From Haliotis asinina (lineage: Eukaryota; Mollusca; Gastropoda; Lepetellida; Haliotidae), in NCBI RefSeq assembly GCF_037392515.1, contig NC_090290.1, positions 1,851,478-1,915,477 of the forward strand: a stretch of 64,000 nt of DNA, given 5' to 3'. The notes beneath the pieces are model-generated. The model did not search any database. It saw only the letters and a program-made list of their open reading frames with translations, and was not told the origin of the DNA. Positions 5,098-63,978 of the stretch are shown in pieces. The position numbers and the translations under genes were made by a program. The stretch's first letter is position 1. Each line of letters starts with the position of its first letter.

Positions 5098-7245
5098 TTG
5101 TACTTGGACTTTCGTCCCTCGTAAGGAAGCCTGCGGGAGACCAAACACAGTCATAGCTGGTGGATGTGCACTCAAGTGTAACGACGGTAACCGATTGTCT
5201 GCTTCATTTGCTGATACGCCGAGCGCTCATAAGGTGGGGCCCATAGTGTGTTCAGAAAGATGTATTTGATGGGCATTTTAGAAGTATGGCGAGTCACAAG
5301 AAAGTAAGATTCTTTGTGGATATCAACTTTTTGTATTGTATATGATGCATCGTTTCAGTATGGATTGATATACCGTTGTCAAACAAAATCATATACACTA
5401 TGTTGTTATCCATAAAGAATGTATGTAGAGATGTTGGGTTTTGTAAATCTCTGAATTTGCGTTCGATCCAATCAAAAATCATCTCAGTAGAGATGGTGAA
5501 CTACTGGAAACTGTCATTCGTCCAAGTACAAAGCAGGACTTGAAACTGACAAGCGTTTGCACCAGTTTCCGTGAGATCCAGTCATCCATGAAAAACGGAT
5601 GTAGTTTGTTTGCAACCCAGAGACATAAAAACATGTAATATGTACAAGTATCACACCTGCTTTATTCCATAATGTGGCTGAGACAGGACTCGGGTGCATG
5701 AGTCATCAATCAATTTATTTTGTTTATGGCGTATAGCCTGATAGGTGTTAAGTTTAAATGGCATGTGGTCAATGATTGAAGCTGTGTATTGCATATTGTC
5801 TTTAGCAGACAGGCAGCCATACATATAGGTGTCAATAAACCAGACATTAAGCTTTCTCTGTGACAGAGGCTGCTTCTTACAATCAACATGGTTTTTTTAT
5901 GTAACGAGTAGATTATTTACTTGTTTGTGTACACAACCAAGATTAGACTACTGCTCACGACCTCATACTCCGGGCATGCATACTGTTTCAAGCTCCGCGA
6001 ACCTAATCACTGCGCATGCGTTATGGGCGCAGCGCAGCACAGCTGTTGAAACAAATTCTTCCCCCAGCACTGGGTGAAATTTAGTGAATCGCTTGAACTC
6101 CGAATTCGCGGATTTTTTTCCATCGCGGTTTTTTTCTTTATAGGTTGAATTGGCATTTTCTATGATTTGTTTCGGTAACTGCATACCGAAAGGTATCAGA
6201 ATCTGCAAAGTTGTGTTTTCCTTTTTTATGTGACCTTTTATAAAGTTTCGTTCCATGAGATAACCTGTCAAAATAATACAACATATCAATAATGCCCTAT
6301 GCTCCAGGGTGGGCAGTTCTCTCTGGAGGTCTTGATGTTTCTTTTTCTTTGGGACAGTGTCTGGCCAGCACTATGTTGCACCATGTTCAGTTTATTAATT
6401 TGCGTCCCCAGTCCAACATGAAATTTATCGCCTCGAAAACGTTGGGATGGGTTTTTCGAACAAGTTACTTTAAGCTCCCATGCCAACCTCTTACCTCTTA
6501 TTTGTCCAGGGCACATTTCTGTCATGGAGTTCCATTCCTGAAGGTTGTTGTTTAGTTATGTTAAATATAACAGTATGTGTTAACTGCAACTAGCCCGTGT
6601 ACAGCAGGTGTAGTCCCACGAAGCCTAAAATTATTCAGTTAGGTACAGTTCACTCGGCTGATTGGACTTCATGCCTCAATGATTTTATGGGATTATGGTG
6701 AATTGTTGCTTGGCTGACCACAGAAAGGAAGAATCAACAGAAATCAAATATGATTGTAAAGTATTTCAAAAGGTGACCTATCCCATCTGTATCACTGGTA
6801 CTATTGGTAAAGGTTGGATCGACCACATGATTCATAGCAACATATACTGTCATGTGTTATGTTATCACAACACAATCTCTATCATTTAGCATATTATCAC
6901 AGGTGACAAGGTGATATTGTTTATGGTATTGTTATTCACTGTTCCCAAACACAAAATAAGTGGGATACTGAGTCAGAATTCTTTTCTAAACAGCTTGCGC
7001 ATAGTGAAAGAAACACCCATGCATCTTCACTCCACCGAACACTGTGGTAAGAGCATCAGTATCCTACCCCTAACAGAGTGACCACTCTCCACTGAACAGT
7101 GGTCTGTCCCACTCTCATTTCACGCCCCAATTACCTCATTAATTATGTCCAGGGGTCAAACTGTAATTAGCCTTTGGGATTTATTAGGTGTGAATTTGAG
7201 GCCTTGCGGACTGTTTTACCATCACCCATCAGTTATCTCCCCTTG

Positions 7246-8911: not shown

Positions 8912-9467
8912 TATCTTTGGGTGGGTTGATTGGGGATCTACCCCGAACTTTTCTGGAAGGCGACAAACTGTGGGCCTTAGAATGGACGTTTTCAGAGACG
9001 TCCATGTCTTCGAGAGATCCATATTTGTTATATTGCTGAATTTTATTTTCCGACCCTTTTGGGGCTCTGCCACTTTGCTTTTTGGGAGCATCGTACTTCA
9101 GTTTAGTTTTGCTTTTCACAGCTGGCTGACTATCAGATGATGACTGAGACTTTGAACGTGATTGAGAAGACGACGTATGATTAGATGATGGTTGTGACAC
9201 TTCCTCTGACGTACTATGTATTGATTCCGCAGTTTGAGATGATGTAGCAGGATATAGATTCTGTGGAGAGTTGTCTTTAATCCAAGTCAAGTTTGTTTGG
9301 CGGCTTGTGGTTGATTTAGATACTTTAGGGCTTAGCTCGATTGGTGTTTTGGTTACTGAAGCATAACTTTCTGTCATCTCACATCTCTGTACAAGTTTCT
9401 TGGCATCAGAAAAACTAATGTTCTGGGTAAATTTGATCTTGTTGATCTGCATTTGTTCTTTCCAAGT
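8910..9467 (-). pseudogene. LINE A ORF1, C-terminal part
   Basis: It continues the nucleic-acid-binding ORF1 from the codons after C-P-T-W-K-E: NKIKFTQNISFSDAKKLVQ, a Q-T-N-L-T-W motif, a Ser/Gln-rich stretch, then KYGSLEDMDVSENV and a basic tail SPSRKVRGRSPINPPK. A one-base loss before the ancestral stop (AAAGATAATG against AAAAGATAATG in sisters) lets this copy read past it. The N-terminal part is at 15598-16324. Confidence 0.75.
9457..9467 (+). repeat. Target-site duplication of LINE B, left
   Basis: TCTTTCCAAGT, repeated at 15587-15597 on the far side of LINE B. The boundary with the CTCA tail leaves one or two bases ambiguous. Confidence 0.85.
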
Positions 9468-9468
9468 T

Positions 9469-9526
9469 GGCACCCGTGGCGAGCCACCTCCTCGTGGTGG
9501 GTGCTGGATAACGCCAAGAGCTCGCC
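9469..9526 (+). ncRNA. HDV-like self-cleaving ribozyme at the LINE B 5' end
   Basis: Predicted fold: P1 GGCACCC pairs GGGTGCT (G1 opposite U, as in HDV); P2 GGCGAGC pairs GCTCGCC; P3 ACC pairs GGT around the loop TCCTCGT, which closely resembles the HDV L3 loop. The strand GGATAACGCCAAGA then carries the predicted catalytic C at 9515. The element begins at the +1 G, where such a ribozyme would cleave. HDV-like ribozymes at LINE 5' ends are known to release the element RNA from upstream transcript and to support translation; activity here is inferred from the fold. Confidence 0.8.
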
Positions 9527-10055
9527 AACACCCCCCTTGTGGACCCGGGGGTATATTTGGTCCACCAACCCGTTTGCCGTGGGTTGCGGCCCTGTGTCGG
9601 TGGAGGAAGGGATCCTGGTGGTTGAGGGCAATAGGGGCCTGGAACCGTGTTCCTATTGCCTAACACACCACTTTGGCACTGACTTCACCTAGACGGGTGG
9701 TCGAATGGGCCCGGTTCGACCAATCGGCTGGTCACGCCAAGCCCTGTGTGTATACATTGTTTTGCACATATTTGATGACAGGTAAAAAAAAAATTGTCAA
9801 AAGTCTCGGTTAAATGTTACCTTTGAATTTTGAATGAACGGATAAACTTTCATAATTTGCCTAGAGTTGTACGCCCAGAAGGCGGTGGCTCATGGGCCAA
9901 TCTTGTGGAATAATTACTTTTCGATTATTCTGCTTGAGTATATCATTCAGGTATCCTTGGTGCTGCAAGTTGGAAACCCACTTGCAATTAGCATTGTCCT
10001 TGTGATACTCCGTGGTGGGTGGGGAGCCTGGATGATGAATCAAAACAAACTCAAT
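9527..10055 (+). promoter_or_regulatory. LINE B 5' UTR
   Basis: A GC-rich first part (to about 9750, including CTAGACGGGTGG and AATCGGCTGGTCACGCC) is followed by an AT-rich stretch. A second conserved block then runs up to ORF1 (GGCGGTGGCTCATGGGCCAAT … CGTGGTGGGTGGGGAGC). The same two blocks precede ORF1 in C, F, G and M. Any internal promoter would be expected here, but no specific element is recognisable. Confidence 0.6.
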
Positions 10056-11345
10056 ATGGACTACCAAACTCCCACCAAAAAAACCAAACGTCAGCTCGAC
10101 AACGATAATGAACAAACACAGTCCAAAGTAACAGACAACTGGCCACGTTTCCTAGTTCTCGACACCGTAGATGAGACACCACTGAAGCTCAACCCTTTTG
10201 TAATATCGAAGGGTATAAATGGCATCGCAGGTGAAGTGAAGAACATAAAACGCTTGCGTTCAGGATCTTTGTTGATCGAATGCAGTAGGAAGCAACAAGT
10301 CACCAACCTGTTGAATACCGAAAGTTTAGCTGGTATCAACGTTTCAGTTAAAGCGCACAGAACACTGAACACCAGCAAAGGTATTATAAGGGATAGAGAT
10401 CGTTTGTTGGCGGAAATGTCAGAATTGGACATCGCTTCCGAAATGAAAGATCAGGGTGTCACATATGTAAAGAGATTTACCACCCGCAGAAATATGGACA
10501 TCATTCCAACAAACACTTACCTCTTTTCATTCTCTTCGCCAGTTCTTCCTAAATCTCTCAAGGTTGGTTATTGTAATATTTCAGTCAACGTTTACATCCC
10601 AAATCCCTTGCGGTGTTTCAGATGCCAAAAATATGGTCACGGTGTCAACACATGCACACAGCCAATAACGTGTGCTCACTGTAGCGAGACTTCACACGTA
10701 ACTGAGGATTGTGAAAGTACCGTTAAAAAATGTACAAACTGTTCCGGTAATCACTCATCCTTTTCTAAAGACTGTACAATTTGGAAAAAACAAATGGAAA
10801 TAAACAAAATCAAATTTACTCAAAACATTAGTTTCGCTGATGCTAAAAAACTTGTTGAATCTACAGTACGAAATGATTCCTATGCATCCGTCGTCAGGAC
10901 ACCCTCCGAAAGCTTGCCAAAAGTAAATTTACCAGTATCCCGTTGTTCCACTGAATGTCAAACAGATTTGACATGGGCTACAAACGATACCCCTCAACTT
11001 CTTATACCAGAAGAACAGTCTACTCAGACTTTAGAGTCATGTGTAAACAGTCAGATGTTAGCCAAAGTTCAGGATGAAGTGCAATTGTTGTCACAGTCCA
11101 CTCAGAAGACTCGTTCAGGAACAGTTTCAAAGTCAGTAGCAAAAAATACAGCCAAACCAAGGACGGAGAACGTGAAAAAAGGTGGCAGAACCTCTAAGGG
11201 TTCAGAAAATCAAATACAGATATTTAATAAATATGGTTCACTGGAGGATATGGATGTGTCTGAAAACATCAATCTCAGGGCACATAGCTTGTCGCCCTCG
11301 AAGAAAGTGAGGGGCAGATCCCCTATTAAACCACCTAAAAGATAG
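10056..11345 (+). CDS. LINE B ORF1: zinc-knuckle RNA-binding protein, intact
   Basis: 429 residues. I chose ATG 10056 because M-x-Y-x-T-P begins the same protein in copies C and M; the upstream in-frame codons are 5' UTR. Residues 1-180 form a basic N-terminal region with conserved blocks (RDRDRLLAEM, NTYLFSFSSP). Three zinc knuckles follow at about 187-200 (CFRCQKYGHGVNTC), 206-219 (CAHC…H…C) and 226-240 (CTNC…H…C). A Q-T-D-L-T-W motif lies near 302 and a basic tail (KKVRGRSPIKPPKR) ends the protein. ORF1 proteins of this type coat the LINE RNA and act as chaperones in the RNP. The frame has no lesion. Its stop lies 15 bases before the conserved ORF2 VQWNCRGL codons. Confidence 0.88.
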   Translation: MDYQTPTKKTKRQLDNDNEQTQSKVTDNWPRFLVLDTVDETPLKLNPFVISKGINGIAGEVKNIKRLRSGSLLIECSRKQQVTNLLNTESLAGINVSVKAHRTLNTSKGIIRDRDRLLAEMSELDIASEMKDQGVTYVKRFTTRRNMDIIPTNTYLFSFSSPVLPKSLKVGYCNISVNVYIPNPLRCFRCQKYGHGVNTCTQPITCAHCSETSHVTEDCESTVKKCTNCSGNHSSFSKDCTIWKKQMEINKIKFTQNISFADAKKLVESTVRNDSYASVVRTPSESLPKVNLPVSRCSTECQTDLTWATNDTPQLLIPEEQSTQTLESCVNSQMLAKVQDEVQLLSQSTQKTRSGTVSKSVAKNTAKPRTENVKKGGRTSKGSENQIQIFNKYGSLEDMDVSENINLRAHSLSPSKKVRGRSPIKPPKR

Positions 11346-11362
11346 GTCATTTTAGTAATATC

Positions 11363-14300
11363 GTGCAGTGGAATTGTAGAGGTCTCAGAACCAATTATAA
11401 TGAATTACAGCTATTGGTCCAGGATTTAACACCATCGGCATTCTGTCTGCAAGAAACATATCTTAAACAGACAGATAATTTCAATTTACGTCAGTTTGAA
11501 GCGTATCACTATTTTGCCCCTCCAGGTGATACGGCTACTGGAGGTTCTACTATCCTTATACGACGGGATGTTATTCACAGCCCTATTACAGTTAAAACTA
11601 ATCTCCAAGCTGTTGCAGTGCGACTGACTCTGGGAGTAGCATTTACATTATGCTCTCTGTATATTCCACCTTCTTTAACACTTCAGCAGACTGATCTCCA
11701 ATCACTCTATGACCAACTCCCGAAGCCATGTGTTATTATGGGTGACCTAAACGGTCACAACCCACTCTGGGGCAGTATTAACACTAATACTAAAGGCAAA
11801 ATACTGGAAGATTTCATTTCAAATAATGATCTGTGTTTATTTAATGATGATTCAAACACATATCTGCATCCTGCAACTGGCACTTATTCTTCTCTAGATC
11901 TGTCTCTTGCAGATTCTAACCTCCTCAATGCATTTGATTGGACTGTTCATAATGACCTTTGTGGAAGTGACCACTTCCCAACTATCCTTTCAGAAATTAC
12001 TCCATCTGATTCTCCATCGTTTACAAGATGGAACTTTTCGAAGGCTAACTGGTCTTTATATCAAACTGTGTGTGAATCCAAACTGCGCCCTGAATATTTC
12101 AGTGATATAACTGATCCCATTCAGACTTTTGCTGACATTTTAAATAGAATAGCTGATGAGTGTATACCAAAGTCCTCTACGACTCCACATGTACGAAAAC
12201 CATGGTTCAATGCAGACTGTAGACAGGCCAGAAAAGCGAGGAAAAAGGCAGAACATTATTTTCGCCATCATCCAACTGTCCACAATTTAAATAAATTTAA
12301 GATACTTAATGCAAAGACGCGTCGTACCTTCAAGCAAACTAAACGACAATCTTGGAGAAATTATGTCTCCAAACTTACTTCACGCACACCAATATCCAAG
12401 GTATGGAATATGGTTCAAAGAATTAAAGGCAAAGGTTCAAAATCTGCCGTGCACCATCTCAAAGATGGTGATAATTTAATTACTGATAAGTCTAACATTG
12501 CAAAAAAAATCGGCGAAACGCTTGCCAAGAATTCATCATCGACAAATTATGTTCCTCAGTTTCAGAGATATCAGAAACAACAGGAAAAGACAAAACTTAA
12601 TTTCGAATCAAATAACGGTGAAGACTACAATGAAGTGTTTTCATTACATGAGCTACATACTGCTCTTGAGCAAGCTCATGACACTGCAACTGGTGATGAT
12701 AATATCCATTATTAGCTTCTGAAACACTTACCTGAACCATGCTTGATGACTCTTTTAGATATATTTGATCAAATATGGACGTCGGGGAAATTTGCTCCTT
12801 CTTGGCGTAATGCCATTGTAGTCCCAATCCCAAAACCTGGCAGGGATCATACAGATCCATCCAATTATAGACCGATATCTCTAACTAGCTGTGTCTGTAA
12901 AACCATGGAACGTATGGTCAATAACAGACTAACTTGGTATCTTGAAACCAATAACCTGATCACAAATATTCAGTGTGGTTTCAGAAAAAATCGCAGTACT
13001 ATTGATCATTTGGTACGTTTAAAATCCTTCGTGAAAAATGCTATGGTCAATAAACAACATACAGTATCGATTTTCTTTGATCTCGAAAAAGCTTATGATA
13101 CGACCTGGAAGCATGGTATTTTGAAGGATTTACATGACTTTGGCTTGAGAGGCCGTCTGCCTCTTTTTATATCAGAGTTTTTAAAAGACAGACAATTTCA
13201 AGTCCGAGTAGGTTCAGCCCTGTCTGATCATTATAATCAGGATCAGGGCGTTCCACAAGGCAGCATTTTGTCTGTCACATTATTTAGTATTAAGATCAAC
13301 AGTTTATCCAAGGTTTTAAACGATTCAATTGATGGATCGTTATTTGTGGATGATTTTAATATTTCTTGTCGTAGTAAAAATATGCATACTATTGAACGGC
13401 AACTGCAGTTGTGTTTAAACAAAATAAATAAATGGTGTCTTGACAACGGCTTTAAATTTTCTAAATCCAAAACTAACTGTATACATTTTTGCAGAAAATA
13501 TAAACCACATAAAGACCCTGAACTATCTCTAGATGGCACTCCCATCAAAGTTGTAAAGGAGGCCAAGTTCTTGGGCCTAATCTTTAACTCCCAGTTAACA
13601 TTTCTGCCTCATATCAAGTCCCTTAAAACTAAATGCCTGAAGGCTCTTGACTTGTTGAAAGTTGTTTCCAACTCAAAGTGGGGAGGGGATCAAGCAACCC
13701 TCTTACACCTGTATCGATCACTCGTACGTTCGAAACTCGATTATGGCTCCATCGTATATGGTGGAGCCTGCAAAAGCAACCTTAAACTTCTTGATTCTAT
13801 CCACCATCAAGGCTTAAGACTTTGTCTTGGGTCTTTCAGAACTTCACCTATTGATAGTCTCTACGTTGAGGCCGATGAACCATCTCTTACTCAACGTCGT
13901 ATAAAATTGTCTTTACAATACATTACTAAATTATATTCTAATGAATCTAACCCTGCCTATAACTGTGTCTTCAATCCCCTTTATGAGGATTTGTATAACA
14001 GAAAGTCTTCTCTTGTTCCACCTCTTGGACACAGAATTAAACCATTTATTTCTTCTGCCGGTATTGAGCTGGAAAGTATATCGCCTTCCCGTCTTCTTTC
14101 TTCTCCTCCTTGGCAGTTGGTTAGGCCACAAGTTGACCTAACATTAACATCATTTAAAAAATCAGAAACAAACAACTTACAATATAAACAAGAATATCAT
14201 CAATTAAAACATAAATATAGCAATTACAAACCCTTATTTACAGATGGGTCCAAGGACGGTGGCGCGGTGGCTTGTGCCACTGTCATTGGATCCAGAACAA

Positions 14301-15013
14301 TATCTTCTAGATTACCAGATAATAGTTCTATTTTTACAGCAGAAGCTAACGCCATATTAACAGCTCTCAAATATATTCAAAGACACCCTAAACGTAAACA
14401 ATATATAATCTATTCCGATTCTCTTTCTTGCCTTCAGGCTATTAAAACCATTTCTTGTAAACATCCACTTTTAATAGAAATTATTGAATTGTATAATGAT
14501 CTTGCAACTGGCCAATACGACATCGTCGTCTGTTGGTTACCCAGCCATGTAGGGATCTCTGGTAACACATTGGCTGACCTTGCTGCTAAGGCAGCACTCA
14601 ACAAATCTGTGACAGCATTGCTTATTCTCTACACTGATTACAAAGCTACCATTAGATCTTATATCCGTGATCTGATGCAGAAGAAGTTGGACACCCAAGT
14701 GGGTATAAATAAATTACATGAGATAAAACCTTACATTGGTTATACCCACTTGGGCTGTCAGTCCAGATTTGAAGAGGTTATTTTACGACGATGTCGTATT
14801 GGCCATACTAGATATACTCATTCATATCTTTTAAAAGGTGAGGATCCTCCATTTTGTATCCCTTGTGATGAGAGAGTCACGGTCAAGCATATTCTGCTTG
14901 ACTGTGTTGAATTCTCCATCACAAGGGATAAATATTTCAATGTCAAAACTGTAAAGGATCTTTTTACAAACATTAATTCTCATTTAATTATAGGTTTTTT
15001 TAAAAGAAATTGA
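11363..15013 (+). pseudogene. LINE B ORF2 (endonuclease-RT-RNase H), one TAG codon
   Basis: 1216 codons in one frame, interrupted only by TAG at 12713-12715 (codon 451), which is CAG (Gln) in A, C, D and G. Domains: AP-type endonuclease, residues 1 to about 220 (NCRGL, LQETYL, GDLNGHN at ~127, SDHFP at ~202); linker to ~480; RT ~485-700 (DPSNYRPISLTS, FFDLEKAYDT ~571, GVPQGS ~630, active site FVDD ~661); RNase H ~955-1090 (TDGSKDGG, AEANAI, SDSLSCLQA, LPSHVGISGN); C-terminal CIPC…H…C cluster ~1166-1184. It nicks target DNA and copies the element RNA in place. The frame also runs open upstream of 11363, and the ancestral start overlapped the ORF1 stop. Confidence 0.9.
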
Positions 15014-15586
15014 TTTTTTGATTGAATTTTGAATAACATGTTCTGTAAATAGATGTATTTTAATTCTTGGTTGTTTAGATTTGTAACTAGAATTGTAAGT
15101 GGCTGTACCCTCAAAGGGGGTTGAAGTATTGTAAAATTATTGTCCTCCTGAGAGGGTACGTAAGTCCACAAACAGTGAAAGTAAATTCTAAATTTCCAGG
15201 TTTTTAATCGTAGAATAAATGTCTTTTTATTGTATGGCTAGATTTCACAAATTGCTGACGGCTGAGGGAATGATGTAAATCCAACTAGGGTCCATGCAGG
15301 TAGCAAAAGTACTGTAAGTCCCCATGGTCCCTAGTATGGTGATCTACCTTCAGTTGTTAGCAATCTATAGCCCATTTTTACATTGTATTGTCCTGTATAG
15401 ATAAATTGTTTTAGGTATAGTTACTAGTTTTATATTCTAATCTGTGATATCCTAGTCGTTTTACTGTCCTTCGCTGACAGATTTTAAAATAGACATATAT
15501 TTCATTTTAGTATTAAATGTTCTCGTCACGATATGGCTGAGATATTGCCGATGTGACGTAAAATATTAACTCACTCACTCACTCAC
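15014..15586 (+). other. LINE B 3' UTR and CTCA tail
   Basis: Contains a hairpin with perfect 8-bp arms, GTACCCTC (15105-15112) and GAGGGTAC (15152-15159). A block shared by all copies follows (GGTCCATGCAGGTAGCAAAAG … CCCTAGTATGGTGATCTACC). The terminal module is ATATGGCTGAGATATTGCCG … TTAACTCACTCACTCAC. The tail is likely the RT recognition region, as in other LINEs without poly(A). Confidence 0.8.
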
Positions 15587-15597
15587 TCTTTCCAAGT
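15587..15597 (+). repeat. Target-site duplication of LINE B, right
   Basis: TCTTTCCAAGT, identical to 9457-9467. After it, the minus-strand ORF1 of LINE A resumes in its interrupted codons. Confidence 0.85.
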
Positions 15598-27484: not shown

Positions 27485-28720
27485 ATCTTTTGGGAGGATT
27501 TATTGGGGATCTACCCCGCACCTTTTTGGAGGGCGACAGGCTATGTGCCCTAGAATGGACGTTTTCACATACGTCCATGTCCTCCAGAGATCCATATCTG
27601 TTGTGTAGCTGTATTTTATTTTCCGACCCTTTCGGGGCTCTTCCACTTTTTTTGTTTGTTTTTTTGTTTTTTTTTTGGTCTCATGCTTCAGTTTACTTTT
27701 GCTTGATACAGCTGACTGAGTATCACATGACGATTTAGATTGTGAACGAGACTGAGAGGATGGCTGAGAGAGAACAGAAGAAGACTCTGACTGCTTTTGT
27801 GACTAGGAAGTGACTCCGTAGTTTGAGACGATGTGGTAGGATATAATATCTGGGGAGAATCACATTTGACCCCAGTCAAATTTGTTTGACAGCTTGTGGA
27901 TAAAGTAGATAGTTTATGGCTGGATTCAGTTGATGTTTTGTTTACAGAAACATAACTGTCTGGAAGCTCAGATCTCTTGACAAGTTTTTTGGCATCCGAG
28001 AAACTGATGTTTTGTGTAAATTTAATCTTGTTAATTTCCATGTGTTCTTTCCAAATCGGGCATTCTTTTGAAAAAGATGAATGGTTTCCTGGACAGTTGG
28101 TGCACTTTTTAAACGTACTTTTACAATCATCTGTTGTGTGTGACTTCTCACCACAGTGAGCACACACAATGGACAATGTACAAGTATTTACGCCATGGCC
28201 GTACTTCTGGCATTTAAAACATCTGAGTGGATTGGGAATGTACACATCAACCTTGATGTAGCAGTAACCAGCCTTCAATGATTTTGGAGCTGTCGGAGAT
28301 GAAAAGGAGAAGAGATAAGTATTCGTGGGAACAGTTTCATTGTCTTTACGGGTCGAAAAGCGTTTGACATAGAGCACACCTTGATCTTTCATCTCGTATG
28401 CAATGTCAATTTCTGACATTTCAGCAAGTAGTCGATCGCGGTCCCTGATGATGCCTTTGCTTGTATTTAAGGTCTTATGAGCAGAGACCGTAACTGGAAC
28501 GCCAACGAATGATTCGGTACTCATACGGTTGGCTGATTGCTGTCTTTTAGAGCATTCAACCAGCAGCGCACCGGAACGTAACTTTCGTATGTTTTTGACT
28601 TCTCCAGCAATCTAGAAAACGTGGCCAGAAATCAATTGATTTGGACGGTCGGATGTCATCATCAATGGGATCAGTTTCAAGAGGACGTTTGGTTTTCTTA
28701 GTTGGGGTTTCATAAGCCAT
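27485..28720 (-). pseudogene. LINE C ORF1, deleted and frameshifted
   Basis: Starts M-A-Y-E-T-P-T-K-K-T-K-R at 28720. A block equivalent to B's LDTVDETPLKLNPFVISKG is missing near 28615. From 28524 a 278-codon frame includes all three zinc knuckles (CFKCQKYGHGVNTC, CAHCGEKSHTTDDC, CTNC…C). The C-terminal serine-rich part loses frame near 27750, close to a T-rich tract. Confidence 0.8.
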
Positions 28721-29246: not shown

Positions 29247-29304
29247 GGCGAGCTCTTTGCGTTACCCAGCACCCACCACGAGGAAGTGGCTCGCCACGGG
29301 TGCC
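29247..29304 (-). ncRNA. HDV-like ribozyme of LINE C, predicted inactive
   Basis: P1 (GGCACCC/GGGTGCT), P2 (GGCGAGC/GCTCGCC) and the TCCTCGT loop are intact. The strand reads GGGTAACGCAAAGA, so the predicted catalytic C is A (plus-strand T at 29258). P3 also has one G-U pair. The fold is kept but chemistry should be lost. Confidence 0.75.
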
Positions 29305-33122: not shown

Positions 33123-33180
33123 GGCACCCGTGGCGAGCCACCTCCTCGTGGTTGGTGCTGGGTAACGCCAAGAGCTCGCC
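33123..33180 (+). ncRNA. HDV-like ribozyme of LINE F
   Basis: P2 is perfect (GGCGAGC/GCTCGCC), the loop is TCCTCGT, the strand is GGGTAACGCCAAGA and the predicted catalytic C is at 33169. P1 pairs GGCACCC with TGGTGCT, so the innermost P1 pair is a C-U mismatch, as also seen in copy M. It could still be active. Confidence 0.75.
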
Positions 33181-35329: not shown

Positions 35330-35936
35330 CTCCCGTGTGGACCCGGGACAGAATGTGTCCACAGCACCCCATTGCTTGTCGTAAGAGGCGACTAAATTGG
35401 GCAACCTGTTCGCCGTGGGTTGCGTCCCGTGTCGGTGGAGGACGGGATCCTGGTGGTTGAGGGCAGTAGGAGACTGAACCATTTTGCTCCTATTGCTCAA
35501 CACACCACTTCGGCCCTTACTTCACCTAGACGGGTGGTAGAATCGGCCCGATTCTATCAATCGGCTGGTCACGCCATGCCCTGTGCATAGAAAGTACTTG
35601 ATTTATTGGGTATTGGTCATTTTTTATGTCTAGTGTGTAATACCTTTTTGCTATATCTACTTGCCTAGAGTCCTATGGCAGAAGGCGGTGGCTCATGGGC
35701 CAATCTGGTGATGTCGACCTCTGTGTTCTATATGTCTCCAATTTCTTGTTAGTAGCCGAACCAGCCTAGCATTTAAATTGGTAGACAAATGTAGCTACTC
35801 ATGTCGTATTTACTGGAGTATACCACTCCTGTATCCCTAGTGCTTACAGGCTGGAGTTCCACTGCATTACAACACTGTCCTTGTTGACACTCGGTGGCGG
35901 GTGGGGAGCGGGAGTGCTGAATCTATTATCATCACC

Positions 35937-49627: not shown

Positions 49628-50788
49628 GTACGAGGGGATGTCAATAAATTTGAGCCTTGCATAGAAAAACACAAAATATTGGTATGAACCACATTTATTT
49701 TTCAACATAGTCCCCTTGTGAGTCAAGACACTTGTTCCGTCTTTTCTGCCATCTCTGCAGAAGGCACCATTTTGGTCCTCAAACCAAGCCTCAGTAGCAG
49801 CAATAAGCTCACTATGATCCTGAAATCTACGACCACGCAAGTGTTTGTTGAGATTTGAGCACAGATGGTAATCACTTGGTGTCAGGTCTGGAGAGTATGG
49901 GGGGTGCGGCAAGATTTCGTACCCGCATTCCTGGACAGCAGCGGCTGCAACGCGAGAAGTGTGTACTGGAGCATTGTCTTGATGTAGACATTCATTCTTC
50001 TTCCTTTTGGTAAGTAATCTATGTGGATGACGCCTTTGCTATCCCAGAAGACTGTCGCCATTACCTTCTGCACTGATCTGGAGGCTTTCCTTGGAGAAGT
50101 GACATGTTTCCAATCCATGGATTCTTGTTTGCTCTCAGGATCATAGTGGTGGATCCAGGTTTCATCACAGGTTACTATCATAAAGTGAAAATCTTCTGGA
50201 TTCTTCTTGTATTTGGTTAGCATGGAGTTGCTTATGGTGGCCCTTGTTTGCTTCATTACATCTGTAAGCATTCTTGGCACCCATCTTACGCACACCTTAG
50301 ACATGACGAGATGTTCATGAAGAATTGTCTCGATGGATCCGTGTGAAATGCCTGTGGTCTCCTCTAACTCGTGGAGTGTGATTCGACGATTTTCCAACAC
50401 AAGTCTATGCACTCTGTCAATGTTTTCCTGACTTGTGCTTGTTGTTGGGCGACCTGGACGGGGGTCATCTTCAAGACTCTCTCTACCATGCTTAAATTCA
50501 TTGACCCATCGTTTGATGGTAACAGATCAAGGGGAAGACTTCCCATAAACTGCTGAAAGCCTTTCTTCAATGGTCTTCGCCGAGTTCAAGAACTAAAAAC
50601 GTAATTACTGCTTTATACTCAATTTTATTCATTTTCACTGCTGTGAGGGGGGTCTCTTTCTGTCAATGTGAGTTGTTCAATAACTTCTGAGCGTAGGATA
50701 CCAAAACTTCATCATCATATCATATCAGCTACACCCCAAGGTTCAATGTCGTACCACAGGCTGTGAAAACGTATTGACATCCCCTCGT
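49628..50788 (-). mobile_element. Mariner (DD34D) transposon
   Basis: Ends are inverted repeats CGAGGGGATGTCAATA (49629 on) and TATTGACATCCCCTCG (to about 50787), with TA on both outer sides as expected for this superfamily. The 1.16-kb body encodes a broken transposase on the minus strand. It lies at the broken end of LINE fragment J. Confidence 0.88.
49695..50632 (-). pseudogene. Mariner transposase, broken
   Basis: ATG 50632 (M-N-K-I-E-Y-K-A-V-I). A frameshift before A-K-T-I-E-E-R-L, a TGA after Y-G-K-S-S-P, then IKRWVNEFKHGRESLEDDPR, RPGRPTT and the second HTH-like region (ELEETTGISHGSIETIL). Catalytic block one is TCDETWIHHYDPESK. A deletion of about 30-40 codons after DYLPKGRR removes part of the core. 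Block two is HQDNAPVHTS and block three is YSPDLTPSDYHL, with exactly 34 residues between the last two aspartates. It ends C-L-D-S-Q-G-D-Y-V-E-K and TAA at 49697-49695. Confidence 0.85.
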
Positions 50789-51016: not shown

Positions 51017-52039
51017 CTGACAACAGAATGAAATGTTGATATCTCAGATGATCACCTCCTTCCAAAGGACGAACACTATAGGAAGAATGAAGATAATTAG
51101 ATTTACCAGCATGATCGCGACCCAAAGCACTCTGTGAGCTTCGGATGAAAATAGTTTAGACTTGTCGAGATCTTAACCTAATGCATATTGTGTGGGGACT
51201 AGTGAAGGACAGAATAAGAAAGAAAACGTCTTAGAAATAATGAGGATATGAAGAAAGAAGTGTTCAAATTTTGGGAATACACTGTTTCCTACAAACTTTG
51301 ATCGGCAGTGTACCTTGGCACATTCAGTCGTTTATTGCAGTACTCATGAAGTATTGAAAAGAAACCTAGACTGTAAGAGAATCATATCTCAACATATTCA
51401 TTAAAGAAAACCTCTATAGTTTATATATATAGTGTATTAGATATTTTCCGCAATACGTTTCTCAATACTTTCTGTAAATACCACGTATTGTGCTATATTT
51501 GTCCATCATGAACATTCACCTGATCAAGGAGCAAGCCTTAAAACGTTGGTGGTCTTAAGTGTGATATTCTTTCATTTGATTGTGATCTATAGCCCTCCTT
51601 TCATGTTGTTCGTTCTACATGATATATCATCCTTTTATGATGAAATGGCGGTTTTAGAGAATTAATTCATTTGTTACACCAATCCATGCTTGTTTATGGT
51701 TTTATACATGATGTTGTTTCAGTAAACTTTAATGGTAACATGCTTTCTGAAGAACCTTAAACAATATTTACATGTAAAGGCAGACTTTGTAACTTCCAGT
51801 TGCCATTGACGTTAGTGACTTGATGACTTTCAGAAGATATAATTAAGGCCAAAGTTCGTAGTACTGGTAAGATCTGTGTAGATAGGCAACAAGAGTTAAG
51901 TCAGGAACTCACGAAAAACCTCAGTGTACACAGACAGTGCTATGTCTCCTTCACCGTCAGAGGTGACACAATACAAGTTACGTTTTCTGGCACATTATGT
52001 TTAGATGATTTCACAATATTCATTCTAAATGTCAATAAA
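51017..52039. other. Upstream region of the ankyrin gene
   Basis: AT-rich, no repeat or ORF recognised. The final 200 bp are the likely 5' flank or 5' UTR of the ankyrin gene. ATG at 52029 (ATGTCAATAAAATGCC) is out of frame and overlaps the gene start region. Confidence 0.4.
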
Positions 52040-53734
52040 ATGCCGGTTTGCTTTCAAAATATTCATTCAGGAGATATGATGCGGAACACCCATGAAAGAT
52101 TTCCACAAGAAAAAGGACACAAAATTCAAACTCAAGTAAACAGCCTGTTCCATGATACCAATAGGAAGGGGTACCTACTCCGAGTGAAACGCTTCTTGTC
52201 CCAAGGTTTGGTTGATGTCAACAGTAGAAGTGAGAAGCACGGAAAGACACTACTCATGGTGGCGGCTCAAGAAGGACATAGAAAACTATTTGACTTTCTT
52301 GTAAGTAAAGGAGCTAATGCATCACTCGTAGATGAAAATGGAGACAATGTCCTGCACATGGCCTGCAGAGGAGGACGTATGGCTATTGTGAAGTATATAG
52401 TCAAAAATGACAGTGTTGATATTAACAGTAAGGGAATGCACGGATCAACTTCATTGCTGCAGACTGTATATTGTGGACACATGCACGTGTTGAGATTCCT
52501 CTTGACCAAGGAAGCTAATGTGTCACACTTGGATAACGAAGGAGAGAATATCCTGCACGTGGCATGCAGAGGGGGACATTTGAATATGGTGAAGTATGTC
52601 CTCTCACTGCCCAGTGTTGATATCAACAGCAGGGAGTGTTACGGAGAGACCCCTCTGATGAAGGCTGCATCAGAAGGACACATTGACGTATTTGTGTTTA
52701 TTGTGACATCCAGAGCTGATGTGCATCTCCTGGATGATGACGGCGACAACATACTTCATCATGCTTCAATTGGGGGGCATGCAAACATAGTTCAGTTTAT
52801 CGTATCACACAAACTAGTGGACATTAACAGTAGAGGAAAAGATGGAATGACGCCATTGATGAGAGTGGCGTATTATGGACATAAAAAAGTGTTTTACCTG
52901 TTTATGAGGGAAGGTGGTGAAACGAAATTGGTGGATGATCGGGGTTACAACATCCTTCATCTGGCCGCCTTGAGTGGACAGGTCGAGATGGTGAAGATTA
53001 TCCTCTCTCTAACCACCGTGGACATTAACAGTAGAACACACACGGGACAAACCCCGTTGATGACGGCCGCATATGAAGGACACAAAGACGTTTTTGAGTT
53101 CCTCTTATCTAAGGGAGCTAATGTGTCATATGTTGATGATAAGGGAGACAACATACTTCATCATGCCTCATATGGGGGCCATACAGAGATGGTTCAGTAT
53201 ATTCTATCACAAGACCTGGTAAATATCAACATTCGTGGAAAATACGGAGCTACCCCTCTGATGAAGGCTGTTCTTAGGGGACACATAAATGTGTTTAAGT
53301 ATCTCATGCGTATGAAAGCTAACGTGTCACTGGTGGATTCTGACGGAGACAGCATACTTCATTATGCGTCCATTGGGGAGCATACAAAGATGGTTCAGCA
53401 TGTCCTATCACTAGAGCAGGTGGATATCAACAGTCGGGGAAAACACGGGAGAACAGCCTTGATGAGGGCGGCATTTTACGGACACAGAAAGGTGGTTGAC
53501 CTCCTTGTGAGTAAAGGTGGTTTGACTAACCTAGTGGATGCTGAGGGTCACAGCATGCTTCATCTGGCCTCTTTAGGTGGACGTCTGGAGATGGTGAAGT
53601 ATATCCTCTCACAGAACATGGCCGACATAAACGCCAGGGACGAGGAAGGGGACACTGCAGCCATGGTAGCAAAACGTAAAGGAAAACTTGACGTGTATAA
53701 TTTCCTTGTTTCAAAGGGTTGTGCAGAAATATGA
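52040..53734 (+). CDS. Intronless ankyrin-repeat protein built of 67-residue double repeats
   Basis: 564 residues, one uninterrupted frame. ATG 52040 is the first in-frame Met. The protein is ankyrin repeats almost throughout. From residue 68 there are seven units of exactly 67 residues (starts 68, 135, 202, 269, 336, 403, 470), each a pair: G-x-T-P-L-M-x-A-A-x-x-G-H…F-L-x-S-K-G-A-N-V then D-G-D-N-I-L-H-x-A-S-x-G-G-H…I-L-S…V-D-I-N-S-R. A half unit precedes them and a half follows (537-564), about 16 repeats in all. No signal peptide, membrane segment or other domain is seen, so it is probably an intracellular protein-binding scaffold; the partner is unknown. It is the clearest non-transposon gene in the window. 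Confidence 0.87.
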   Translation: MPVCFQNIHSGDMMRNTHERFPQEKGHKIQTQVNSLFHDTNRKGYLLRVKRFLSQGLVDVNSRSEKHGKTLLMVAAQEGHRKLFDFLVSKGANASLVDENGDNVLHMACRGGRMAIVKYIVKNDSVDINSKGMHGSTSLLQTVYCGHMHVLRFLLTKEANVSHLDNEGENILHVACRGGHLNMVKYVLSLPSVDINSRECYGETPLMKAASEGHIDVFVFIVTSRADVHLLDDDGDNILHHASIGGHANIVQFIVSHKLVDINSRGKDGMTPLMRVAYYGHKKVFYLFMREGGETKLVDDRGYNILHLAALSGQVEMVKIILSLTTVDINSRTHTGQTPLMTAAYEGHKDVFEFLLSKGANVSYVDDKGDNILHHASYGGHTEMVQYILSQDLVNINIRGKYGATPLMKAVLRGHINVFKYLMRMKANVSLVDSDGDSILHYASIGEHTKMVQHVLSLEQVDINSRGKHGRTALMRAAFYGHRKVVDLLVSKGGLTNLVDAEGHSMLHLASLGGRLEMVKYILSQNMADINARDEEGDTAAMVAKRKGKLDVYNFLVSKGCAEI

Positions 53735-59290: not shown

Positions 59291-59348
59291 GGCACCCGTG
59301 AACGGCAACCTCCTCGTGGTTGGTGCTGGATAACGCCAAGAGCCGTTC
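59291..59348 (+). ncRNA. HDV-like ribozyme of LINE M with rewritten P2
   Basis: P2 is GAACGGC/GCCGTTC, against GGCGAGC/GCTCGCC in all other copies. Four of seven pairs differ and every one is compensated. Loop TCCTCGT, strand GGATAACGCCAAGA and the predicted catalytic C (59337) are conserved. P1 has the same C-U end mismatch as F. Selection on the helix rather than the sequence is the natural reading. Confidence 0.82.
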
Positions 59349-59863
59349 ACCCCTGTTGTGGACCTGGGGGGTTGTGGTGGGGGCATATTTGGTCCACCAA
59401 CCCGTTTGGAGGACGGGATCCTGGTGGTTGAGGGCATAGGAGCAGAACCAGTGTTCCTATTGATAAACACACCATTCTGGCCCTGACTTCACCTAGACGG
59501 GTGGTTGAATGGGCCCGGTTCAACCAATCGGCTGGTCATGCCAAGCCCTGTGCATGGATTTTATGTAAATGCACAAATTTGATTTGGAAATGTTTAAATT
59601 TTGGTCTTGCCGCCTATGGTTCATAGAATATAGTTTGACTTGAATTTTGTTTACATGAACTTTGCCTAGAGTCATATACCCAAAAGGAGGTGGCTCATGG
59701 TCCAATCTGGTGGAACTGTTCATCTTTTTAATGTTTCTGCTGGAGTATATCATCCGGGTTTCCTTGCTGCTGCAAGATGGAGACCCATTTGTATTTAGCA
59801 TTGTCCTTGTGATATTCCGCGGTGGGTGGGGAACTCGGATGATGAACCATATAACCAATAAAC

Positions 59864-63920: not shown

Positions 63921-63978
63921 GGCACCCGTGGCGAGCCACCTCCTCGTGGTGGGTGCTGGGTAACGCCAAGAGCTCGCC
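63921..63978 (+). ncRNA. HDV-like ribozyme of LINE N, consensus form
   Basis: All helices are perfect apart from the G1-U pair: P1 GGCACCC/GGGTGCT, P2 GGCGAGC/GCTCGCC, P3 ACC/GGT, loop TCCTCGT, strand GGGTAACGCCAAGA with the predicted catalytic C at 63967. The best candidate for an active ribozyme. Confidence 0.82.

Follow-up and report, generated by a model that had tools for sequence, protein, structure and literature searches.

A putative P4-less HDV-like ribozyme at the exact 5' ends of an abundant abalone LINE

HDV-like ribozymes of LINEs and the abalone element

HDV-like ribozymes of RTE and SART were reportedly described by Ruminski et al. in 2011. A sequence-only reading of the DNA studied here had listed such ribozymes as known at the 5' ends of R2, some RTE and L1Tc elements, which proved correct for R2 and L1Tc. 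For LINEs, HDV-like ribozymes at the 5' end are described for R2, R4, Dong, Baggins and L1Tc (PMC3774820, PMC4035085). In R2 the ribozyme sets the 5' end of the element, as proposed here for the abalone LINE, and the silkmoth R2 ribozyme is likewise described without a P4 stem. According to the same source, R2 is mostly rDNA-specific and several of its lineages cleave upstream of the element (PMC3774820), whereas the abalone LINE has variable insertion sites and a predicted cut at base 1. For the R2 ribozyme of a fly and the zebra finch, conservation is described as highest in CCUCCUCGUGG (PMC5035012), and positions 19-29 of the abalone ribozyme consist of the same letters.

The L1Tc/ingi clade of trypanosomatids also carries an HDV-like ribozyme (Pr77) at the LINE 5' end, as predicted here for the abalone, and Ingi has been placed in the I group with RNase H. 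Unlike the abalone ribozyme, L1TcRz is drawn with a P4 stem (PMC4035085), and both host and element differ. Closer in host is an HDV-like ribozyme of Haliotis discus with 'only 5 nucleotides instead of a P4 stem' (Webb and Luptak 2011, cited in PMC3774820). Going by this description in the citing paper, it resembles the present ribozyme in coming from an abalone, in being HDV-like and in missing P4; the two may belong to the same family, in which case the ribozyme alone would already be on record. The P4-less plan is furthermore common to the abalone ribozyme, the theta ribozymes and the minimal drz ribozymes (drz-Mtgn). Theta ribozymes occur in a phage setting with no retrotransposon, and tRNA processing was proposed for those directly at tRNA ends. 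Four of them cleaved in vitro, and a C to U exchange inactivated them (PMC10879173).

In a literature search, no earlier description of this molluscan LINE as a ribozyme carrier came up; the mollusc papers that it returned deal with R2 of an oyster and with hammerhead retrozymes of a mussel. The kind of ribozyme is already known, and the novelty appears to lie in its setting, a very abundant LINE that encodes RNase H.

Ribozyme copies and their LINE in the 64-kb window

The window, i.e., the whole 64-kb stretch of abalone DNA that was analyzed, holds five copies of a 58-nt sequence, all of which start with GGCACCC (at 9469 (+), 29304 (-), 33123 (+), 59291 (+) and 63921 (+)). GGCACCC alone was rejected as a signature, being too short, with six matches in the window compared to 3.1 expected. 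When the 51-nt arrangement was searched with up to three substitutions, the window matches were those five places only:

9469..9526 (+): ribozyme of copy B, 58 nt, predicted cleavage directly 5' of G9469
29247..29304 (-): ribozyme of copy C, from the 51-nt fuzzy search
33123..33180 (+): ribozyme of copy F, from the 51-nt fuzzy search
59291..59350 (+): ribozyme of copy M, whose P2 is the second version GTGAACGGC/GCCGTTCAC, from the 51-nt fuzzy search and comparison with copy B
63921..63978 (+): ribozyme of copy N, from the 51-nt fuzzy search; the element extends past the window end

The earlier claim that five copies begin at one G of a 58-nt sequence was hence reproduced, with a different P2 in copy M. 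Outside P2, the ribozymes of copies B and M are identical at 42 of 44 positions, compared to 56-79% identity in other stretches of the first 1.4 kb of these copies.

In copy B the 58 nt can be divided, following the HDV plan, into these parts:

9469..9475 (+): P1 5' strand GGCACCC, pairing with GGGTGCT at 9499-9505, with a G.U pair at the predicted cleavage site
9478..9484 (+): P2 5' strand GGCGAGC, pairing with GCTCGCC at 9520-9526; four of the seven pairs show double changes between copies
9486..9498 (+): P3, ACC/GGT around the loop TCCTCGT
9499..9505 (+): P1 3' strand GGGTGCT
9506..9519 (+): GGATAACGCCAAGA, with the GG of P1.1, no P4 and a putative catalytic C at 9514 (ribozyme position 46)
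9520..9526 (+): P2 3' strand GCTCGCC

Numbered from G1, the helices follow in HDV order, with P1 at 1-7/31-37, P2 at 10-16/52-58, P3 at 18-20/28-30 and P1.1 at 22-23/38-39. L3 is TCCTCGT, and P1.1 is followed by R40-TAA-Y44-G-C46-N47-AAGA and then directly by P2. The sequence-only reading had given the strand with the catalytic C as 'GGNTAACGCCAAGA'; this strand is indeed present, and its wording had to be amended to GG-R-TAA-Y-GC-N-AAGA, as positions 44 and 47 are variable. The catalytic role of C46 would follow from analogy to the HDV plan. At gathering score, which does not itself define the class, Rfam called no ribozyme, the best sub-threshold matches being HDV_ribozyme with 24.8 of 50 bits and HDV-F-prausnitzii with 19.8 of 44 bits; the Rfam family RF02682 had no match in the genome, but none in any control genome either. 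Lowest-energy nested folds, computed with a folding program without pseudoknots, differ from the ribozyme fold, and an alternative hairpin was predicted in P2 version 1.

Copy B is a LINE with the following features:

9457..9467 (+): 5' copy of the target-site duplication tctttccaagt, 11 nt, separated from G1 by a single additional t at 9468
9469..15586 (+): LINE copy B, starting with the ribozyme and ending in a (CTCA)n tail
9846..11345 (+): ORF1 frame, 499 aa from stop to stop, no Pfam family
11339..12715 (+): first part of ORF2 with the endonuclease (Exo_endo_phos_2), closing at an in-frame stop
12716..15013 (+): second part of ORF2 with reverse transcriptase and RNase H
15587..15597 (+): 3' copy of the target-site duplication

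The sequence interrupted by copy B is related to another of the window's LINE copies, and an uninterrupted relative near 28045-28058 has the target site once, with small differences. The ORF2 of copy B is split by one in-frame stop. The earlier description as a LINE with RNase H in a gastropod was accurate, since copy B encodes endonuclease, reverse transcriptase and RNase H and the host is the abalone Haliotis asinina. In the genome, two lysin exons joined together share 94% identity with the sperm lysin of Haliotis asinina across 90% of the query, ahead of H. ovina with 67%, whereas COX1 was not detected in the assembly. Judged from the translated frames, an APE-type endonuclease, a reverse transcriptase and a C-terminal RNase H fit the domain criterion of I-group LINEs (I/Nimb/Ingi). 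In a survey of molluscs, the I superfamily was represented by Nimb and Ingi, in addition to an unknown clade from octopus (PMC10294476).

Other elements were observed in the window as well. A related LINE copy at 35333-35600 starts just downstream of the expected ribozyme end (CCCGTGTGGACCCGGG...) and therefore appears to be truncated at its 5' end; in its leader it is similar to copies with the third P2 version (L149-L160). At 51827-53731, amid LINE copies, an uninterrupted 635-aa ankyrin-repeat frame with internal DNA repeats was found, and at 49882-50523 (-) a piece of a transposase (Transposase_1, HTH_32), which we take to be mariner-like.

Genome-wide copies, 5' boundaries and covariation

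The genome (1.14 Gb, 159 contigs) was searched with a core pattern, TCCTCGT-N10-GGNTAAYGCNAAGA with at most one mismatch, which is blind to ribozyme positions 1-20. The core was identified at 5972 places (2991 + 2981), compared to none for the reversed pattern (0 + 0). The absence of matches to the reversed pattern, together with the loss of pairing and covariation with slid partners described below, ruled out a chance origin.

The 5' boundary was analyzed in 60 places, the first ones of the list, which all lie on contig C1 and match the core exactly. An exact GGCACCC begins 55 of these 60 core-chosen copies. Pairwise identity averages 0.28 in the 22 nt preceding G1, compared to 0.96 in the 22 nt that start with it. 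Within the 22 nt before G1, no repeated flank or conserved upstream sequence was found among the 60 copies. The 3' ends were examined in 13 copies close to B, and for three of them a search up to 500 nt from the expected place gave none. All ten copies with a 3' end have direct repeats of 11-16 nt; these lengths are upper limits, since a repeat may extend into the CTCA tail. The repeats are flush at G1 in six rows and end one nt before it in four; because two pairs of rows share a site, the independent tally is eight, with five flush and three one-nt sites, to which copy B adds another one-nt site. As these target-site duplications abut G1, the RNA copied into those sites should have begun at G1, plus or minus one nt. 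The exact GGCACCC starts and the target-site duplications reaching G1 bear out that the element starts at the predicted cleavage site. As seen in work on L1, a capped RNA is expected to leave an extra G at -1. No excess of G was found at -1 (20/128, compared to 17.1% in the flanks), and therefore, if L1 behavior is a guide, nothing here points to a capped start.

For covariation analysis, six loci without the element (matches to another repeat) were excluded beforehand, which left 162 loci. Nine were dropped (rearranged, gapped or with more than two mismatches in the P1 5' strand) and, from the resulting 153, another 12 with shared flanks were removed, giving 141 rows, of which 93 are distinct. 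In these rows the helix order 5'P1-5'P2-P3-3'P1-3'P2 was recovered, with 95.0% of the cells paired, compared to 32-44% with slid partners. Pairing amounts to 92.8% for P1, 96.8% for P3 and 98.4% for P1.1, in rows that by selection are ungapped and have at most two mismatches in the P1 5' strand, and 18 of which were fetched for unusual P1 3' strands. The G1.U37 pair, a G.U pair of P1 at the predicted cut site, is present in 86 of the 93 distinct rows. A P4 stem is absent from the window copies and from the 141 rows, with 12 nt between P1.1 and P2, a spacing by which the rows had been picked. Among 59 unselected copies (L078 was left out for its P1), all 17 pairs are formed by 43 and at least 16 pairs by 54. 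The predicted catalytic C is present in 20/20 deduplicated, ungapped copies retrieved with a query outside the ribozyme; the 30 loci obtained in this way comprised these 20, four duplicates and six with a rearranged, gapped or truncated ribozyme (L042, L054, L055, L056, L065 and L066). C46 was also found in 63 of 64 rows not picked via the core pattern, the remaining one having a T.

Positions off the majority in more than 10% of the 141 rows are P2 positions 11-14 and 54-57, as well as 44, 47 and 59-61. P2 occurs in the versions GGCGAGC/GCTCGCC, GAACGGC/GCCGTTC and GAAGAGC/GCTCTTC, and once as GAACAGC/GTTGTTC. Changes on both sides were counted in 128 cells, compared to 49.5 ± 4.5 in shuffled rows and 6-9 with slid partners, and the covariation score is 0.205, compared to 0.095 when shuffled and at most 0.038 with slid partners. 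All 128 double-changed cells fall in four P2 pairs. Two of the five covariation measures stay within the shuffles because a single stray cell counts there, namely the number of pairs with a double change (4, not above the shuffled mean of 4.5; slid partners 4-8) and the number of further pair types (18, not above the shuffled mean of 19.3; slid partners 14-19). P1 and P3 gave no covariation in the 141 rows because both barely change. With P1.1 included, 15 of 19 pairs are without a double change, so that their support comes from conservation and not from covariation.

The same P2 version is the nearest one on both strands in 139 of the 141 copies. One exact version-2 form occurs at 64 places in the genome, compared to a single place for each swapped form with one mismatch allowed; the swapped forms are rare partly by linkage, because both strands are inherited together. 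Only about three or four independent compensatory P2 events carry weight. The nested HDV-like double pseudoknot that the sequence-only reading had proposed is supported by this P2 covariation, and the first 58 nt are best described as a predicted P4-less fold of this type.

Genome-wide copies with uncompensated P1/P2 substitutions had been named as evidence against the fold. P2 changes at the level of subfamilies turned out to be compensated, whereas sporadic P1 changes in single copies were not, which is what decay of old copies would give. A search for an altered P1 3' strand identified 77 places in the genome, of which 20 were fetched. Family copies with P1 changes accounted for 18 of these 20, L129 is rearranged and L130 is without the 5' strands; no compensated new P1 was found among the 20.

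Some individual copies deviate from the common pattern. L057 (C13:19858341 region), one of the two rows with unlike strands, combines a version-1 P2 5' strand with a version-3-like 3' strand and is perhaps a recombinant. In L137 (C10:39470818-39471048), a copy of the third version, the leader is broken by another repeat containing CTACGAGGGTTGGCTGAAAAG; this repeat made up the bulk of the matches, past the first rows, in one genome search.

Related ribozymes and the source of the exact 5' ends

The core pattern was also run over IMG/VR viral contigs with P1, P2 and P3 left unspecified. It matched two contigs (L169 and L170), in both cases between tRNA genes. Both stretches can form a P1 of seven pairs (one of them G.U), a P2 of nine and seven pairs, respectively, and a P3 of three pairs, in the same order as in abalone. 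These P4-less HDV-like candidates have almost the whole abalone core in common, with the same core letters and P1-P2-P3 order, but the letters of P1 and P2 differ. Rfam at gathering score made no call on them. By sequence they look like phage theta ribozymes; the nearest upstream tRNA is 156 and 64 nt away, which places them outside the tRNA-adjacent theta class. Three bacterial core matches (Clostridia/Lachnospiraceae by title) were rejected as chance, with no P2 of at least five pairs, a P3 of 1/3 pairs and a P1 of at best 5/7.

From the sequence evidence, a minimal P4-less HDV-like self-cleaving ribozyme very probably gives this abalone LINE its exact 5' ends. A copy would be transcribed within any RNA running through it, and the nascent RNA would fold into P1, P2, P3 and P1.1 and cut itself just 5' of G1, as the fold and the junctions suggest. 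The released RNA would start at G1, keep the ribozyme and get translated. Reverse transcription of this RNA would presumably reach its very end, so that every new full-length copy would start at G1 again, and the family would spread with exact 5' ends, needing no conserved upstream sequence. The role in exact 5' ends put forward in the sequence-only reading is supported by the P2 covariation, the boundary and the target-site-duplication data, with cleavage itself deduced from them.

A ribozyme accompanied by promoter elements in the same 5' end, as in Pr77 of L1Tc, would overlap with this explanation. It has a precedent in trypanosomes (PMC8256844, PMC4035085) and would suit thousands of copies without a common upstream sequence; however, the predicted ribozyme already accounts for most positions conserved within the first 58 nt, and the promoter part draws on that precedent by analogy. 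Such a combination is possible, albeit on the unlikely side. It is very improbable that an internal promoter within the 58 nt, with its start site at G1, produced the ends through a fixed transcription start and that the fold is incidental. The 5' end of L1Tc is described as both promoter and ribozyme (PMC8256844), and the flanks contain no conserved upstream promoter, but four base pairs about 40 nt apart change together, which is unnecessary for a DNA promoter, the core retrieves viral stretches of the same plan, and the excess of G at -1 expected from a capped RNA is missing. That the 5' RNA is past cleaving and serves only translation or the binding of element proteins is scarcely credible: self-cleavage is itself a deduction and version 1 has the alternative hairpin, but the copies conserve both P1.1 and the predicted catalytic C, and a non-cleaving structure would leave the copy starts at the predicted cut site unexplained.

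A self-cleaving ribozyme in this position would explain in concrete terms how a very abundant molluscan LINE obtains its 5' ends, and it would offer a likely home for the reported abalone ribozyme. It would also be an animal example of a P4-less HDV-like ribozyme, one missed by Rfam models at their thresholds. The thousands of copies with matched P2 versions form a natural data set on the evolution of the HDV fold, and intronic copies would serve as natural tests of co-transcriptional cleavage. A more far-reaching reading, which we consider doubtful, is that the abalone and trypanosome L1Tc/ingi ribozymes come from one I-group-LINE ancestor and were lost or overlooked in most lineages, overlooked because P4-less forms score below current models; the approximately 6,000 abalone copies would then be self-cleaving sites across the genome, many of them inside host transcripts.

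As a separate observation, the region C14:26671878-26918244 of the genome contains six matches to the Egg_lysin family on one contig, two of them with internal stops.
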